Both the position numbers and the translations under genes were made by a program. A stretch of DNA of 64,000 nt from Nitrospira sp. (GTDB taxonomy: Bacteria; Nitrospirota; Nitrospiria; Nitrospirales; Nitrospiraceae). The notes under the pieces are model-generated. The model made no database searches and had not been told where the DNA came from. It saw only the letters and a program-made list of their open reading frames with translations. Every line of letters begins with the position of its first letter. The stretch's first letter is position 1. Location of the stretch: positions 481,144 through 545,143 of the forward strand of contig JALHPO010000001.1 in the NCBI GenBank assembly GCA_022842445.1, in the 5' to 3' direction. Of this stretch, positions 14,540 through 20,963 are shown piece after piece.

Positions 14540-15643
14540 TTACAAGATGGGGGTAAAACGCAACCCATGGGCCTCCGCGACCCCCTGGCACGTGACCAGG
14601 CCGTCTTTGACGTTCACCCCTTTGGCCAATCCGCGATCGGCGCCGATCGCCCGATCGACCCCGTCCGATGCAAGCCGGACCATATACGGCAAGGTGGCAT
14701 TCGTCAACGCCAGCGTCGACGTGCGCGGCACAATGCCTGGCATATTGGCGACGCAATAATGGACCACCCCCTCGACGACGTAGACCGGATCAGAATGGGT
14801 CGTCGGCTTCGTCGTTTCGAAACAGCCACCTTGATCGACAGAGACATCCACCACGACGGCCCCGGGTTTCATCCGTGAGACCGTGGAGCGCGAAACTATC
14901 TTGGGCGCTTTTGCGCCGGGGACAAGCACGGCGCCGATCACAAGATCCGCCTCACACACAGCCCGTTCAATAGCAGCCGGACTTGCCACGCATGTCACGA
15001 TACGGCCTCGATACAAATCGTCCAGATAGCGCAGCCGCTCGACGTCCAGATTGATGACAGTCACTTGGGCCCCCATCCCCACGGCAATCCGAATCGCCGA
15101 CATTCCCACGACACCGGCGCCAAGCACCACCACCTTACCAGACTCCACACCCGGCACCCCGTGCAACAACACACCCCGGCCGCCATGCGTCTTCTCAAGG
15201 TAATGCGCACCGACCTGCACCGACATCCGCCCTGCAATTTCACTCATCGGTTTAAGCATCGGCAGGCTGCTGTCTTTGGCCTCGGTGGTTTCGTAGGCAA
15301 TCGCCGTCACCTTCTTATCCATCAATGTCCTGGTCAGATCGGGGAGCGAGGCCAAATGCAGGTAGGTGAACAGGACCTGGCCGGGGCGAAACAGATGACA
15401 TTCGGCGAGCAACGGCTCTTTGACCTTCACAATCAAACCGGCCTTCTCAAACACCTGCTCCTTCGATCCGGCGATCGAAGCCCCGGCCTTGCGATACTCG
15501 TCGTCGGCAAACCCGCTCCCTTGCCCGGCCGTCGGCTCGACCCACACTTCGTGTCCGGCACGGCACAACGCCGATACTCCTTCCGGCGTCAGGCTGACGC
15601 GATATTCATGATCCTTGATTTCTTTGGGAACACCGATAATCAT
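14540..15643 (-). CDS. ald: Alanine dehydrogenase
   Basis: 367 residues, matching the family length. It starts [20 protein letters not shown], the signature of NAD-dependent alanine dehydrogenases, and has the dinucleotide fold [21 protein letters not shown] in mid-protein. [11 protein letters not shown] and the terminal [18 protein letters not shown] are also typical. It interconverts alanine with pyruvate and ammonium. The start follows the secreted Lon-type protease stop by 7 bp, so the two are cotranscribed. Confidence 0.95.
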
Positions 15644-15650
15644 TCTTCAC

Positions 15651-16556
15651 CTATTCAGCAGGTCTGAGCGGTTGGCCCGTTGCCACTTCGTACGCTTCCG
15701 CCAGCGTTGAGACTTCCGTCACTCTTATCGATCGTGCCATTCCTTTGTCGGTAATAGCAAACGTTTGCTGGCCAGCCGGCAACAATAATTCATGAAATTG
15801 CGGAAACAGATGGCAGCCCTCGATCTTGTGCTCCAATCCGCCGACCGGGCCGATAACGAGATTCTCGTCGATCGTTCCCGAAAAGCACACATCCGATCGC
15901 AAGGGATCTCCCAGTAACGCCGATGTCACCGCGACCGCCCATGCCGCCCCTGCGCTCGGTCCATCCACACGCGTTCCACTGTGAAAAGACCCGGCAACCA
16001 TGGGCATCGTCAATTGCACAGTGAGAAAGCGCGGGTCGTACTGAGTCGCCTTGGCCGCCGCCATCACAGCCACGGCGAGCGCCTGCCGAGCCCCGTCCAT
16101 GAAATGGTGGTCCGTCGAGAGAAAGGGGCCATTTCCTGCCGAACGATAACTCACATCCACCTGTAGAATTTGGATATCACCCTTGTTGGGAATATTCCAC
16201 CCCTTGGCACGCATCCCGGAAGAAAGATCGTGATAGCTCAACGCTGGAATTGATCGCGATACCGGCGCAAAAGGCCGTGAAGAAAGCGCCGACCCTGCCG
16301 TCATGCCGGGGGAAGGCGTTCGCACCGCCGGCCCTGCGCTTGACTTGAGTTCGGCCGGGCCACGTTGAGTTGGAAATCGGGTGGACTGGAGTTCAGATGG
16401 GGCCTCAATCTCACGGCATCCAGGCCCTCCCCCATCCTGGAAGAGCACGGCTCCATCCGGTTGCGCGCACTTCCAGAGGCCGGCGTGACTGCTCCCGGCC
16501 ATGAACGATGCCGCCCAGAGCGTGCAGGTAACTACCCCGAAGACTTGGCCCCTCAT
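15651..16556 (-). CDS. Secreted Lon-type (S16) serine protease with N-terminal DUF4124-like segment
   Basis: 301 residues. A signal peptide (residues 1 to about 25) is followed by LWKCAQPDGAVLFQD...C, resembling the DUF4124 module. A Pro/Ser-rich linker leads to a Lon proteolytic domain from about residue 125: DGPSAGAAWAVAV with catalytic Ser201, and GPVGGLEHKIEG with Lys244. The 43-residue spacing equals that of the Ser-Lys dyad in E. coli Lon (679/722). There is no AAA module, and the signal peptide places it outside the cytoplasm, which is unusual for Lon domains. Directly upstream of ald. Substrate unknown. Confidence 0.85.
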   Translation of the reverse strand: MRGQVFGVVTCTLWAASFMAGSSHAGLWKCAQPDGAVLFQDGGGPGCREIEAPSELQSTRFPTQRGPAELKSSAGPAVRTPSPGMTAGSALSSRPFAPVSRSIPALSYHDLSSGMRAKGWNIPNKGDIQILQVDVSYRSAGNGPFLSTDHHFMDGARQALAVAVMAAAKATQYDPRFLTVQLTMPMVAGSFHSGTRVDGPSAGAAWAVAVTSALLGDPLRSDVCFSGTIDENLVIGPVGGLEHKIEGCHLFPQFHELLLPAGQQTFAITDKGMARSIRVTEVSTLAEAYEVATGQPLRPAE

Positions 16557-16680
16557 GTGCCATCCCTCCGTAATCTTTAAGAACTATAGCAGAGCGCTTC
16601 GCCCAACTGGACACCTGAAAAACCCCTGGTGTAAGATGCGCGCGCTCGTGTCGATCGAATGGAATGGCAAGGAGAGAACA

Positions 16681-17058
16681 ATGGACACTGGAATCTGTCA
16701 GGCCTGCGGCACCGCCGGCGGCGCGCTGATGAAGTTTTCACTCGGTAAGGATTTCTTCGGCCGTCCCTATGACCGGCTGTCCCCTTCCTCCGATCAAAGC
16801 CCCAAATGGTATTGCGCAGCATGTTCGATGCACAAAAATTTGCAACGAGACTTTCGCGACATCCGCGCCGAATATGACAAGCTGAGCGCCGGCCAGGGAT
16901 CGGAACTCGCGAAGGGAGACGAGTTTCTCCGCGCATCCGTCCGGCTGCGGGAAATCATGACTATTCTGGGCGCCGCACAGGAACCATCGACGCTGCTCGC
17001 CGAAAAGGACGTAAAGCTGTTGATCGAGCGTCTCAATACAGCTACGATGCCGGTCTAA
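16681..17058 (+). CDS. Small zinc-ribbon-like protein of unknown function
   Basis: 125 residues from the ATG at 16681, set by AAGGAG seven nt upstream; longer starts would overlap the divergent protease promoter. ICQACGTAGG and WYCAACSMHKN supply two CxxC pairs about 38 residues apart, likely a zinc or Fe-S site. The remainder is helical and ends in a heptad-like segment. First gene of a plus-strand group that continues with two ferredoxins, so a redox-related role is possible. Family not recognised. Confidence 0.7.
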   Translation: MDTGICQACGTAGGALMKFSLGKDFFGRPYDRLSPSSDQSPKWYCAACSMHKNLQRDFRDIRAEYDKLSAGQGSELAKGDEFLRASVRLREIMTILGAAQEPSTLLAEKDVKLLIERLNTATMPV

Positions 17059-17068
17059 CACGACGCCT

Positions 17069-17422
17069 ATGCCACCATTCCAACGTCATATCTTTGTCTG
17101 CACCAACCAGCGCCCCAAGGATGATCCGCGCGGCTGCTGCGCGAACCTGGGCTCCGAAAAGCTCCACGCCCATTTCAAGAGTGAAACGAAACGGCTGAAT
17201 CTCAAAGGGGCCGTCCGCGCCAACAAGGCCGGATGCCTCGACCATTGCGAAATGGGGCCCAGCGTCGTCATCTACCCGGATGGGGTCTGGTACTGGGTGG
17301 GCACGGAAGCCGATGTGACCGAGATCATGGAACGGCATGTCATCAAGGGCGAGATTGTCACCCGATTGCTCATGCCTGACCATCCGGCTCCGGACTCACT
17401 CACTCCGCTGAAGAAACCCTGA
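17069..17422 (+). CDS. Thioredoxin-like [2Fe-2S] ferredoxin
   Basis: 117 residues. RHIFVCTNQRPKDDPRGCC gives the first Cys group and KAGCLDHCEMGPSVVIYPDG the second, the C-x(about 12)-C ... C-x3-C pattern and GP-V-VYP strand of the thioredoxin-fold [2Fe-2S] ferredoxins (as in Aquifex Fd4 and NuoE/HoxF N-terminal domains). A small cytoplasmic electron carrier. Begins 10 bp after the zinc-ribbon gene. Confidence 0.9.
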   Translation: MPPFQRHIFVCTNQRPKDDPRGCCANLGSEKLHAHFKSETKRLNLKGAVRANKAGCLDHCEMGPSVVIYPDGVWYWVGTEADVTEIMERHVIKGEIVTRLLMPDHPAPDSLTPLKKP

Positions 17423-17444
17423 CATCATAGAATCATCAAATCCA

Positions 17445-17858
17445 ATGGCAACCGAAGACAAATGGAAGGCCAACTTCGAAAAGGTGGCCTTCACGAAACA
17501 ATTTCCAGGGCTGCTGCTCGAGTGGCACAGTTGCCAGGGGAAAACCATTGAAGCAGTCACCCCGCTGACAGGTAAACAGGGCGCCGTTGTCGTGACATTC
17601 ACCGACGGCACGTTTTTCGTCGGGCCACCCTTGGCCCCTGAAGCCTGGGAACTGGGCCAAGCCCTCGTAGACGCCAGAAAGTACCTGGAACCCAGACATC
17701 AAGACGCCTATAAGGAGTATGATCGGCTGGCACAGAAAGACAAGGATGCGCTCCGCTTGGCCAGGCTGGAAAAAATTATCGGCGCGATCCAGAATAATGT
17801 CGATGCGATTCCCGAATTGAAAGCGCGCCTGAAAGCCCTCGTACAGGAGTGGAAGTGA
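17445..17858 (+). CDS. Conserved-looking hypothetical protein in a ferredoxin cassette
   Basis: 137 residues, no signal peptide, no Cys pair. The N-terminal half is a small beta-rich unit (KTIEAVTPLTGKQGAVVVTF onward, then FFVGPPL); the C-terminal half is a charged helix pair (RHQDAYKEYDRLAQKDKDAL, then KIIGAIQNNVDAI). It lies between two ferredoxin genes and its TGA overlaps the probable GTG of the next gene (GTGA). Function unknown. Confidence 0.75.
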   Translation: MATEDKWKANFEKVAFTKQFPGLLLEWHSCQGKTIEAVTPLTGKQGAVVVTFTDGTFFVGPPLAPEAWELGQALVDARKYLEPRHQDAYKEYDRLAQKDKDALRLARLEKIIGAIQNNVDAIPELKARLKALVQEWK

Positions 17859-18157
17859 GCAGCCTCCCCAACAAGAATATGTTTGAGATCTTTTCGCAAG
17901 GTCTCTTTGAAGGAGTCAAACCCATGATGATCATCCGCGATCACCTCATCCGCCACCCGGACCGCTGCACGCACCAGGCCATTTGCGTTCCTATCTGCCC
18001 GACCGGCGCCTGGCTCTCGACGCCTCCGTACAAATTCGATCCCTCACGCTGCCTGGAGAGCTGCCGGCTCTGCCTGGATGCCTGTCCGTCGCAAGCCATC
18101 TTCGGCGTTTTCAAAAAGGGCGACAAGCTGCTGGAACCGCAGAAGAAGACGGGGTAG
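17855..18157 (+). CDS. Two-cluster ferredoxin with one cysteine replaced
   Basis: 100 residues from GTG 17855, chosen because AGGAG lies 6 nt before it and GTGA overlaps the previous stop. Motif I is C-THQAI-C-VPI-CP and motif II is C-LES-C-RL-C-LDA-CP. Relative to the usual CxxCxxCxxxCP, the second Cys of motif I is Gln, so one site has only three Cys ligands, as in 7Fe ferredoxins that hold [3Fe-4S] plus [4Fe-4S]. This is read from sequence; the cluster type is inferred. Last gene of the cassette. Confidence 0.85.
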   Translation: MSSLPNKNMFEIFSQGLFEGVKPMMIIRDHLIRHPDRCTHQAICVPICPTGAWLSTPPYKFDPSRCLESCRLCLDACPSQAIFGVFKKGDKLLEPQKKTG

Positions 18158-18389
18158 CCCGGTAAGTTCCCGTTGCTCGCCGAGCCCCCACGATAATGCG
18201 GTGGTCGCTCGATGCGCGCAGTCGGGAACCAACCAGGCCACCCCTTGAAAATAATAGAGAGAAAAGAAAAATCCTCTCAGCTTCCGCTTTCCTTCCCTCA
18301 CTGACTCAACTCCTACGTTCCTTCGACGCACATCCGTTCCATCCGCGGCATGATGAGGAAAGAGGAAAATCGGAACAGGCCCACGCGGT

Positions 18390-19436
18390 TCAGGCGATCT
18401 GCTTTCGCAGATGCCCCCAGTAGGCTGTGCCGGAGTAGCCGCAGGCGGCAGTGCCGGTCGTCATGACCATGATACGGTAGACTGTGCTGCGCGGGATTTT
18501 TACTTTCACGGCGGGGTTCAGAAGATCCGGGGAATTCATGACCAGCTTCAACGACTCGCCCCCGGAAAGAATCGGCCACATGCAGGACAGCCGGAGCCTC
18601 GTTTCATAACGCGGGATCGCCATCGTATAAAGCCAGCCTTGATCAAGATGCTCGGTGGCCATCCGGACAAGCTTGCTCAGCACCGGCCTGAATTTTGTGA
18701 GATTCTGCTGATCCAATAAATCCCTCGGTGTAAGCCCAGCCTCGGCAAGCATCGGTTCGGGAATATAGCACCGCCCCTTCTGCAAATCGTGCGCAACATC
18801 CTTCACGATGTTTGTCAATTGCAGGCCTTTCCCGAACCGGACGCCGACTGCTGACATCTCTCGTACGTTCCACGAGGCCAGCGCCTTCCGGTGGCCACAC
18901 ATCAAATCCGTCCAAAACTCTCCCACACATCCGGCGACATAGTATGTATAGCGGTCCAGATCATCGACCGTCTTCAGCGCCGTGAGATCATCGGCGGTCT
19001 GCCCCAGGAAGGTGCTCAAATCCATTTCCATTCCCTGTGTGAGCGTGGTCATCAGCCGCTGAACCCGGCGTCGATCCTCCGGCGAAAAGTCCAGAAAGAG
19101 CCTGAAACACTGATCCAAACGTTCCAGCAGTACCCGCTCAGCCGAATGCTGCTGGAGCGGCCCGATTGCGCGCTGAATATCCTGCACCTGCCCCCAAACA
19201 ATCTGATCACCGGCGAACTGGCTTTTCAGCTGACTCAGGAAATCCAGGCGGCGATGCCGATCGATCAGGTCCGTATCGGCAATCGTATCGGCGGCGCGCG
19301 CGAAGAGATAGGCGAGGCTGACTTGATCCCGGACATCCGCCGGCACCACGGCCAGCGTCGTATAAAACAACCGGGAGACTTGCTTGAGGAGATCGCGAAG
19401 CAACTCCTGTTTGGAAAGATCGGTACTCGTGATCAC
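18390..19436 (-). CDS. Squalene/phytoene synthase family protein
   Basis: 348 residues if started at GTG 19436 just after the upstream stop; an ATG at 19496 would force a 58-bp overlap and add 20 residues that look like a shadow. FARAADTIADTD supplies the first Asp-rich motif (DxxxD) and LTNIVKDVAHDLQKGRCYIP the second, with YCxCVGEFW-type context. Head-to-head condensation of two prenyl diphosphates is expected; which product (squalene, presqualene or phytoene) cannot be told here. The C-terminus is hydrophobic and may associate with membrane. Adjacent to a cupredoxin gene on the same strand. Confidence 0.85.
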   Translation of the reverse strand: MITSTDLSKQELLRDLLKQVSRLFYTTLAVVPADVRDQVSLAYLFARAADTIADTDLIDRHRRLDFLSQLKSQFAGDQIVWGQVQDIQRAIGPLQQHSAERVLLERLDQCFRLFLDFSPEDRRRVQRLMTTLTQGMEMDLSTFLGQTADDLTALKTVDDLDRYTYYVAGCVGEFWTDLMCGHRKALASWNVREMSAVGVRFGKGLQLTNIVKDVAHDLQKGRCYIPEPMLAEAGLTPRDLLDQQNLTKFRPVLSKLVRMATEHLDQGWLYTMAIPRYETRLRLSCMWPILSGGESLKLVMNSPDLLNPAVKVKIPRSTVYRIMVMTTGTAACGYSGTAYWGHLRKQIA

Positions 19437-19438
19437 AC

Positions 19439-19861
19439 CTACTCGACGTCGAGAATGCCTTCCATCCCCTTCTCCCGATGACTCGGCAAGGGCCACAGCC
19501 GTTTATCACAATAGATCGGAAACCTCCCCGGCTGGGTGGGTGTAAAAGTGAGCACCACCGTCTTGCCCGCGCCGACCTCTTCCCGGACGGCAAGTGCATC
19601 GATGATGAAATTGTGCGGCGTCAGCATCGTGACACTCGTCAATGTCACTTCCACCGGCTTTCCGGCTCCGACGATCACATGGTACGGCCGAAAGGAGTAA
19701 CTGTCGAGAATGACGCTCACCCGTTGGACTCCATCCGCACCTACCGGCACTCTCCACGGGCTGCCAGGCGGACCTGCGTCGACAGCCACCACGTCCGCCG
19801 CGGGCCACAGGACAGACCACCCCAACAAGAAGAGAAGCAACGGCCTGCAATACGTCATCAA
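19439..19861 (-). CDS. Exported cupredoxin
   Basis: 140 residues with a Sec signal peptide of about 25. The domain has LDSYSFRPYHVIVGAGKPVE and a possible type 1 copper site: His in TPHNFII, then Cys in YCDKR, His in PSHREKGM and Met in the same segment. The strand order matches plastocyanin/azurin-like electron carriers. Its stop is 2 bp before the GTG proposed for the squalene synthase-like gene. Possibly part of the copper-rich respiratory chain of nitrite oxidisers (inference). Confidence 0.8.
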   Translation of the reverse strand: MMTYCRPLLLFLLGWSVLWPAADVVAVDAGPPGSPWRVPVGADGVQRVSVILDSYSFRPYHVIVGAGKPVEVTLTSVTMLTPHNFIIDALAVREEVGAGKTVVLTFTPTQPGRFPIYCDKRLWPLPSHREKGMEGILDVE

Positions 19862-19984
19862 TGAGAAACTTCTAACAGGAAGATCGGGAAAGGGTCAATG
19901 CGGCTTCGGTGTCACGGCGTCTGCCGCCTTGACTTTCGGCGGCGCGGCCTTACTTCTATCGTCACCGGAGCAGATGTGTAAGAC

Positions 19985-20015
19985 TTGTATCTCGATCAGG
20001 CAGTTTGTGTATAAT
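19985..20015 (+). promoter_or_regulatory. Candidate promoter of htpX
   Basis: TTGTAT at 19985-19990 and TATAAT at 20010-20015 with a 19-nt spacer, about 60 nt before the htpX start. The -10 is perfect; the long spacer and moderate -35 make this tentative. Confidence 0.4.
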
Positions 20016-20075
20016 AAAGGCAACTCAGTGATTTATTTTAACTGAGACGAAGACTGGTCTTCAAGGAGGCGTTCG

Positions 20076-20963
20076 ATGAAATGGATGAAGGGTATGGGTC
20101 TGTTGCTGATCTCCAACATTCTCATCATGATCACACTGTCGCTGACCGTACCGATTGTGATCAACGTGATCCTGCCGATGTTTGGAATCGACGTGCGAGG
20201 CTCGGTTGATCTGTCGACATTGGTGTGGGCCGCGATGTTCGGATTCGGCGGCGCTTTCATCAGCTTGGCATTCTCGAAACAGATGGCGCGCGCCATGCTC
20301 AATTGCCAGCAAATCACTCAACCCCGTTCGCGGGCCGAGCAGATTATCTATGGCTCCGTGCAGGAAATCGCGCAGCGGCTGCAGATCACCATGCCCGAAG
20401 TCTGGGTCTACGATGCTCCCGACCCCAACGCCTTCGCGACCGGCCCCAGCAAGAACAACTCCATGGTGGCAGTCTCCACCGGCCTCTTGCAGAATCTACG
20501 GGAAGATGAAGTTAAAGCGGTGCTCGCCCATGAAATGGGCCATGTCTATAACGGTGACATGTTTGCCACGACCGTGTTGGCCGGCTTGATGAACACCTTC
20601 GTCTACTATATCGCCATGTGGGTGCGCCGTTTCTTCGCGGAACGGGATCAGGCCGCGCTGGGATTCGGCCTGTCGCTCGTCCTTCAGATCATCGTCAGCA
20701 TCCTGGCATCGATCGTGATCAGCTGGTTCTCGCGTCAGCGCGAATACGGCGCCGATGCGTTTGCCGCCAAGGTATACGGGAAGGAATCCATGATTTCGGC
20801 GCTCCGCGCGATCGATCGATGGGTCAACCGCACCCAATTCGAGTACTCGACACAGGATGCGCTGGCAACAATGAAGATTTCCGGACAAGCAGGCGGAGTC
20901 ATGAGCCTGTTTTCGACACACCCGCCGATCGAAGCGCGCATTGCAGCGTTAGAACACCTCTAA
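20076..20963 (+). CDS. htpX: Membrane zinc metalloprotease HtpX
   Basis: 295 residues. Two N-terminal membrane helices (about 8-28 and 45-62) precede the M48 catalytic motif AHEMGH near residue 150; two more hydrophobic segments follow (about 180 and 205-225), and the distal Glu lies in SRQREYGADAFA. Degrades misfolded membrane proteins alongside FtsH. Full family length, AAGGAGG 6 nt before the ATG. Monocistronic, flanked downstream by a strong hairpin. Confidence 0.95.
   Translation: MKWMKGMGLLLISNILIMITLSLTVPIVINVILPMFGIDVRGSVDLSTLVWAAMFGFGGAFISLAFSKQMARAMLNCQQITQPRSRAEQIIYGSVQEIAQRLQITMPEVWVYDAPDPNAFATGPSKNNSMVAVSTGLLQNLREDEVKAVLAHEMGHVYNGDMFATTVLAGLMNTFVYYIAMWVRRFFAERDQAALGFGLSLVLQIIVSILASIVISWFSRQREYGADAFAAKVYGKESMISALRAIDRWVNRTQFEYSTQDALATMKISGQAGGVMSLFSTHPPIEARIAALEHL

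Follow-up and report, generated by a model that had tools for sequence, protein, structure and literature searches.

We identified in Nitrospira sp. a real and conserved, operon-like cluster of four genes, here termed P1 to P4 (Table 1), the last of which encodes a seven-cysteine ferredoxin seen in one order of our phylum sample. The cluster lies in the window, by which we mean the whole stretch of 64,000 nucleotides that was analysed (GenBank assembly GCA_022842445.1, contig JALHPO010000001.1, positions 481,144 to 545,143 of the forward strand).

Locus and distribution of the four genes

The spacing is 10 bp between P1 and P2, 22 bp between P2 and P3, and -4 bp between P3 and P4, which overlap by 4 bp. 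An earlier note on this DNA had described four packed frames at these distances, and both its coordinates and its gaps are exact. The cassette is presumably transcribed as an operon.

Table 1. Features of the cassette, in positions of the window
Feature	Position	Strand	Description
Possible sigma-70-type promoter, 5' of P1	16608..16637	+	consensus only, 9/12 matches; no evidence of function
P1	16681..17058	+	125 aa; two CxxC pairs, Cys 6, 9, 45, 48
P2	17069..17422	+	117 aa; predicted thioredoxin-fold [2Fe-2S] ferredoxin
P3	17445..17858	+	137 aa; without recognised cofactor motif
P4	17855..18157	+	100 aa, GTG start; predicted seven-Cys two-motif ferredoxin

A divergent gene for a Lon_C-domain protein flanks the cassette on one side and a convergent squalene/phytoene synthase gene on the other. 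The neighbours comprise these two, alanine dehydrogenase, a cupredoxin and an M48 peptidase, and none of them is a partner enzyme for P2 or P4 adjoining the cassette. Among 37 stretches compared, which include some without the full cassette, alanine dehydrogenase recurs beside it in 25, squalene/phytoene synthase in 28 and the M48 peptidase in 23. The order of alanine dehydrogenase, cassette, squalene/phytoene synthase and M48 peptidase (window positions 14540-20963) is kept in many loci of several families, and it is the cupredoxin or another small gene that differs between loci within this block. Since the neighbours recur around the cassette across families, we attribute them to shared descent rather than shared function, and rejected them as a clue to what the cassette does. 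The literature covered on Nitrospira and [3Fe-4S] or [2Fe-2S] ferredoxins does not describe the operon, many subscription papers being outside this coverage.

We searched for each protein in 98 related genomes of the order, grouped by label into four families (f1 to f4), of which f1 is the genus group of the window. In the resulting table of gene order, a truncated copy was scored as presence of the gene (P1 in G003 and G053; P4 in G034 and G055). Left out were P2 paralogues of approximately 40-49% identity (giving P2 in 90 genomes, and otherwise in 94), three weak P4 matches (G034:C24, G014:C28 and G066:C12; E 7e-4 to 9e-4), and one weak P1 match in G095 of f3 (E 8.7e-4).

Homologues of P4 were found in 85/98 genomes. 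The order P1-P2-P3-P4 is present in 53/59 genomes of f1, that is, in all 53 of those with P4; the six f1 genomes without it (G008, G019, G028, G040, G047 and G048) are drafts of 67-84% completeness. Five of the eight f2 genomes contain P1-P2-P4, the aligned parts of P2 and P4 being separated by 8-11 bp; P3 was recovered from 0/8 genomes of this family, and is thus absent from all five cassettes, and the three genomes without a cassette are G062 (92% complete), G065 (90%) and G077 (71%). The f3 genomes contain P2-P3-P4 in 24/27 cases, P2-P4 in two, and P3-P4 in one, where P2 is located approximately 2.4 kb away. For f4, we identified P2 in 4/4 genomes and P3 in 2/4, on different contigs, and neither P4 nor P1 in any of the four. 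P1 is accordingly distributed as 55/59, 5/8, 0/27 and 0/4 across f1 to f4.

A second set of 35 loci, consisting of the 30 with the best P4 matches in the phylum sample and five chosen by hand, overlaps the 98-genome set in several loci and includes one locus twice; all four genes were present in 34 cases. The exception, G246, belongs to the family of the window and is 98% complete, and has a cassette without P3. In the phylum sample we additionally found G195 (98% complete) to have a partial P4 match only, and no P3 match. The presence of P4 in 85/98 relatives, together with the order in 53/59 f1 genomes, indicates that the seven-cysteine cassette is not a chance arrangement. The conservation of all four genes in order, on which the earlier note depended, holds for every f1 genome with P4 in the set of 98, but not for f2 and G246, which are without P3, or for f3, which is without P1. 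P2 and P4 are the only members common to all three P4-bearing families.

Over the aligned stretches, identity to the window protein in f2 and f3 was 70-82% for P4, 68-76% for P2, 44-55% for P3 and 52-54% for P1, and P4 has changed more slowly than the other three. Separately, we noted that the aligned stretches of P2 and P3 lie 82-256 bp apart in f3 (e.g. L078:5084-5212) versus 11-37 bp in f1, a gap with room for a separate promoter.

Across a wider sample of 245 genomes from the phylum, P4 was found in 77 at E <= 1e-10, all labelled as the same genome, genus, family or order as the window; the P4-negative genomes listed (20 of 168) were all labelled as same class or same phylum. None of the P4 matches in this sample falls outside the order Nitrospirales. 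P3 is present in 89/245 genomes, including 9/11 that share only the class of the window, and seven of a further family, f21. P2 adjoins P3 in three of the nine class loci (L156, L159 and L160), from whose genomes P4 was not recovered, and no P2 or P4 relative was found within 8-12 kb of P3 in five f21 loci. By its distribution among these sequences, P3 is older than P4, and the P2-P3 neighbours in P4-less genomes from other orders of the class indicate that this pair predates the seven-cysteine ferredoxin. The likely course of events begins with P2 and P3 paired in the class, to which P4 was added in the Nitrospirales, followed by gain or loss of P1 by family; P3 has likely been lost more than once.

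Cysteine motifs and predicted clusters of P4 and P2

The first motif of P4 is C38-x2-Q41-x2-C44-x3-C48-P, with Gln41 in the place of the second cysteine, as the earlier note had read it. The second, C66-x3-C70-x2-C73-x3-C77-P, exceeds the usual form by one residue, and the motifs are preceded by a strongly conserved N-terminal segment of approximately 35 residues. P4 matches the Pfam family Fer4_7 by hmmscan (E 6.8e-9; 36.5 bits, against a gathering cut-off of 27), and this match and the two motifs together bear out its description as a two-cluster-type ferredoxin. We counted invariant residues over distinct sequences that cover approximately 85% or more of the query and contain no internal stops. 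Exactly seven cysteines are present in 74/74 such P4 sequences, position 41 is never Cys, being Gln in 47, Asn in 24, Lys in two and Ser in one, and thus no homologue with eight cysteines, which would have spoken against the predicted site, was found (0/74). His40, Glu68, Arg71 and Asp75 are likewise unchanged in 74/74, and the pattern CX3CX2CX3CP of the second motif was recovered in 73/73 homologues.

A spacing rule published for 7Fe-8S ferredoxins, CX3-10CX3CPX17-40CX2CX2CX3CP, is given in a section of PMC11430716. P4 conforms to its first part, with C38-x5-C44-x3-C48-P in 74/74 sequences, and departs from the remainder, with 16 residues (50-65) rather than 17-40 between the CP and the second motif of the window protein, and with CX3CX2CX3CP rather than CX2CX2CX3CP. 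The longer form C-x3-C-x2-C-x3-CP is also found, by alignment, in the FwdF chain 7bkb_K, so the second motif of P4 probably still binds a cluster. The variation at position 41 between Gln, Asn, Lys and Ser argues against a role as a ligand, and favours a first site with three cysteines, which we consider the best reading of the P4 sequence despite the departure from the spacing rule. Such a site would most simply, and probably, hold a [3Fe-4S] cluster. The prediction of this cluster in the earlier note is in this respect reasonable, the loss of the cysteine being fixed, but is weakened by the departure from the rule and by the invariant His40.

That histidine leads to an alternative, in which the first site holds a [4Fe-4S] cluster, with His40 as a non-cysteine fourth ligand or with an open site. 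Consistent with such a cluster, part of PMC6237146 describes a Pyrococcus ferredoxin whose motif contains Asp here as a [4Fe-4S] protein if oxygen is excluded. Against it, His40 is at +2 from Cys38, the place of a ligand being +3, and Mycobacterium marinum has ferredoxins in which the same place is taken by His, Asn, Ser, Thr, Tyr or Phe, of which those examined in the same paper were all isolated as [3Fe-4S] under both aerobic and anaerobic conditions. We regard a four-iron first site as a lesser possibility, perhaps the case one time in a few. An AlphaFold model of P4 from 33 sequences (mean pLDDT 60.5) was too poor for use.

Placed beside known families, P4 resembles the 7Fe ([3Fe-4S][4Fe-4S]) ferredoxins in its two motifs, its non-cysteine residue at the second place of the first motif and its C-x5-C-x3-CP spacing, and differs from them in the form of the second motif, in the 16 residues after the CP and in the conserved N-terminal segment. 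The Sulfolobus-type 7Fe ferredoxins are variants with C-x2-D-x2-C in the first motif, having Asp where P4 has Gln, Asn, Lys or Ser. Among the NCBIfam matches listed for P4 (25 of 62), none reaches its cut-off. The [3Fe-4S] ferredoxins of mycobacterial P450 systems (CXX?XXC(X)nCP), as described in parts of PMC6237146, share with P4 a variable non-cysteine residue, in some cases Asn or Ser, but are single-cluster proteins encoded mostly beside P450 genes, whereas P4 contains another, complete motif and lies next to no P450 gene. The best match among solved structures by sequence is 6cfw_N (E 8e-6), of the NuoI/MbhN-type subunits of complex I-like enzymes. This match is confined to the ferredoxin core (profile positions 22-76); P4 has one cysteine fewer, is not located in a nuo cluster, and scores 19.2 bits against the NuoI family TIGR01971, for which the cut-off is 113.

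P2 was called a thioredoxin-fold [2Fe-2S] ferredoxin in the earlier note, and the sequence evidence supports this prediction. Its closest solved chain in a profile search of PDB sequences is the Aquifex protein 1f37 (E 1.8e-31), and its cysteines, C11-x12-C24-x31-C56-x3-C60, fit the rule CX2-12CX30-44CX3C given for thioredoxin-like [2Fe-2S] ferredoxins in a section of PMC11430716. All four are invariant in 103/103 distinct sequences, paralogues included. P2 thus shares the fold family, by sequence, and the four cysteines of the thioredoxin-like ferredoxins (Aquifex Fd1 and the Azotobacter/Clostridium type), and differs in lying beside P4 in cassettes and in its sub-threshold matches (E approximately 1e-22) to NF041612 (79.9 bits; curated cut-off 150) and NF041613 (80 bits; curated cut-off 195). 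Position 23, beside the ligand Cys24, is Cys in 71/103 and Ser in 32/103 of the same sequences. A second thioredoxin-fold ferredoxin of the genome (G000:C1:88986-89297; L097:4987-5289) is approximately 44% identical to P2, and many genomes of the order contain relatives of it; it is adjoined by no ferredoxins, and its neighbours we take to be a MoaB-like and an AIG2-like protein.

Accessory proteins and the P2-P4 pair

For P1, which the earlier note had recognised as a CxxC/CxxC protein, Cys 6, 9, 45 and 48 are invariant in 77/77 distinct sequences. No Pfam or NCBIfam family matched it above cut-off, and a search of PDB sequences returned nothing better than E 0.2; a zinc ribbon would be the likeliest reading of its cysteine pairs.

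P3 was modelled by AlphaFold2 with pLDDT 95 and pTM 0.67, and the model predicts an N-terminal helix, a small sheet and long C-terminal helices. Its invariant or near-invariant columns contain no Cys and no His, and in the absence of these and of a cofactor motif P3 is not an obvious redox protein. A search of PDB sequences gave nothing better than E 0.4, Foldseek found no PDB chain at E <= 0.001, and the best VIA match has a Z of 3.7 over 53 residues. We discarded as noise the scattered fold matches to toxin B subunits, proteasome subunits and flavoenzymes (E 0.19 or worse). The closest named relative, at 96% identity, is from a Nitrospiraceae bacterium, and exact P3 peptide patterns, searched in all genome contigs including those of other phyla, were found in four loci of Nitrospira or Nitrospiraceae.

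The earlier note had proposed that these proteins may form a new complex with the ferredoxins. One stable complex of all four proteins is compatible with the tight spacing and with an order kept in 53/53 f1 genomes with P4 and in 34/35 loci of the overlapping set, but P3 is lacking from 5/5 f2 cassettes and from G246 despite its 98% completeness, P1 is lacking from 27/27 f3 genomes, and the five f21 loci contain P3 with neither P2 nor P4 relatives within 8-12 kb. As P3 is older and also occurs away from the ferredoxins, a fixed four-protein complex is unlikely, and we did not retain this proposal.

Instead, a two-ferredoxin module of P2 and P4 is well supported, with P1 and P3 as accessory proteins that some families have and others do not. 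Counting against the pair is the absence of P4 from 3/8 f2 genomes, two of them of 90-92% completeness. Taken whole, the explanation that we prefer, and hold to be rather more probable than its negation, is an operon for a P2-P4 carrier pair, in which P4 has a [4Fe-4S] cluster and a three-cysteine site. The [4Fe-4S] cluster of P4 would be bound by three cysteines of the second motif and the last of the first motif, and the second cluster by Cys38, Cys44 and Cys77 only, most simply as [3Fe-4S]. P2 and P4 may then pass electrons, one at a time, into or out of a single larger oxidoreductase that is specific to nitrite-oxidising Nitrospirales, and the near-invariant N-terminal segment of P4 would be a putative docking part. 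We infer this carrier role, and likewise the partner and the direction of electron flow.

We also considered a role for P2 and P4 outside energy pathways, in the assembly of iron-sulfur clusters or cofactors, in which P1 might help by binding metal. The zinc-ribbon-like character of P1, and two ferredoxin genes with no neighbouring reductase or oxidoreductase that obviously uses them, are in keeping with this role; the cassette contains no scaffold, cysteine desulfurase or chaperone, and P4 is confined to one order of the phylum sample, and we think assembly improbable.

CO2 fixation, complex I and nitrite oxidation

Excerpts of PMC6606698 and PMC8407350 call the reduction of ferredoxin in Nitrospira unknown, propose by hypothesis a 2M-type complex I for it, and describe this complex in N. 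moscoviensis as without NuoE, NuoF and NuoH. P4 could accordingly be a low-potential ferredoxin that receives electrons from the 2M-type complex I and supplies them to the 2-oxoacid:ferredoxin oxidoreductases of the reductive TCA cycle. A POR domain is present in 96/98 relatives, so a demand for ferredoxin probably exists. The genome, however, encodes two further two-motif ferredoxins, L188 (G000:C5:10988-11188) and L189 (G000:C7:46083-46283), identical in 101/115 residues, ordinary-looking and with full motifs (CxxCxxCxxxCP, then C-x2-C-x8-C-x3-CP). These appear better candidates than P4 for low-potential work, and a role in CO2 fixation is therefore not automatically that of P4. The four f4 genomes, moreover, have POR and no P4. 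The partners in Aquifex and Hydrogenobacter are described in part of PMC10052474 as single-cubane [4Fe-4S] ferredoxins of -440 to -485 mV, below the -340 to +230 mV given for [3Fe-4S] ferredoxins in part of PMC6237146. Altogether, we view P4 as a doubtful candidate for the CO2-fixation ferredoxin.

Other carriers may exist, since the Fer4_7 search of the genome, with 14 matches, did not include P4, although P4 passes Fer4_7 by hmmscan, and such a list can miss ferredoxins. Searches for Aquifex-like single-cubane ferredoxins with PF13370 matched 57/98 genomes, mostly in open frames of approximately 290-380 aa, whereas the matching frame of G091 is 92 aa long. Scanning L181 for motifs gave no match.

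The distribution of P4 by family bears on the link to nitrite oxidation. According to portions of PMC12342949, UBA2166 is the only family of the order without nitrite oxidoreductase (NXR), yet has the reductive TCA cycle, and 140 genes, among which P4 may be, are proposed as marks of the nitrite-oxidising families. On the basis of these portions, f4 presumably corresponds to the NXR-negative UBA2166, and f1, f2 and f3 to Nitrospiraceae, NS-4 and UBA8639. If f4 is UBA2166, the distribution of P4 matches that of nitrite oxidation and not that of CO2 fixation; the putative link of P2 and P4 to nitrite oxidation draws on the literature and on our own reasoning. The NXR marker TIGR03479 matched in 98/98 relatives without reaching its cut-off in any. 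Its best matches in f4 (3.6e-11 to 4.9e-19) are equalled in weakness by several in f1 and f3, such as that of the single-contig G021 (3.2e-13), so this search cannot separate NXR-positive from NXR-negative genomes, and we rejected it as a test of co-occurrence. The copy number of NuoM was likewise rejected as a sign of the 2M complex I, as f4 also has 6-10 NuoM-like matches and offers no contrast.

More specifically, P2 and P4 could form the module for electron exchange that the 2M-type complex I of nitrite-oxidising Nitrospirales lacks, replacing the lost NuoE and NuoF. The N-terminal segment of P4 would dock to the complex, and the three-iron and four-iron clusters would link it to the ferredoxin pool. 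We give this version very little credence; if it were true, P2 and P4 would be among the genes acquired along with nitrite oxidation as a way of life.

The natural series of Gln, Asn, Lys and Ser at the missing ligand of P4 provides a way to study cluster type and potential. For the Nitrospira-type nitrite oxidisers, in which the source of reduced low-potential carriers for CO2 fixation is the question raised in the excerpts of PMC6606698 and PMC8407350, P2 and P4 are two concrete and very conserved carrier proteins to consider.
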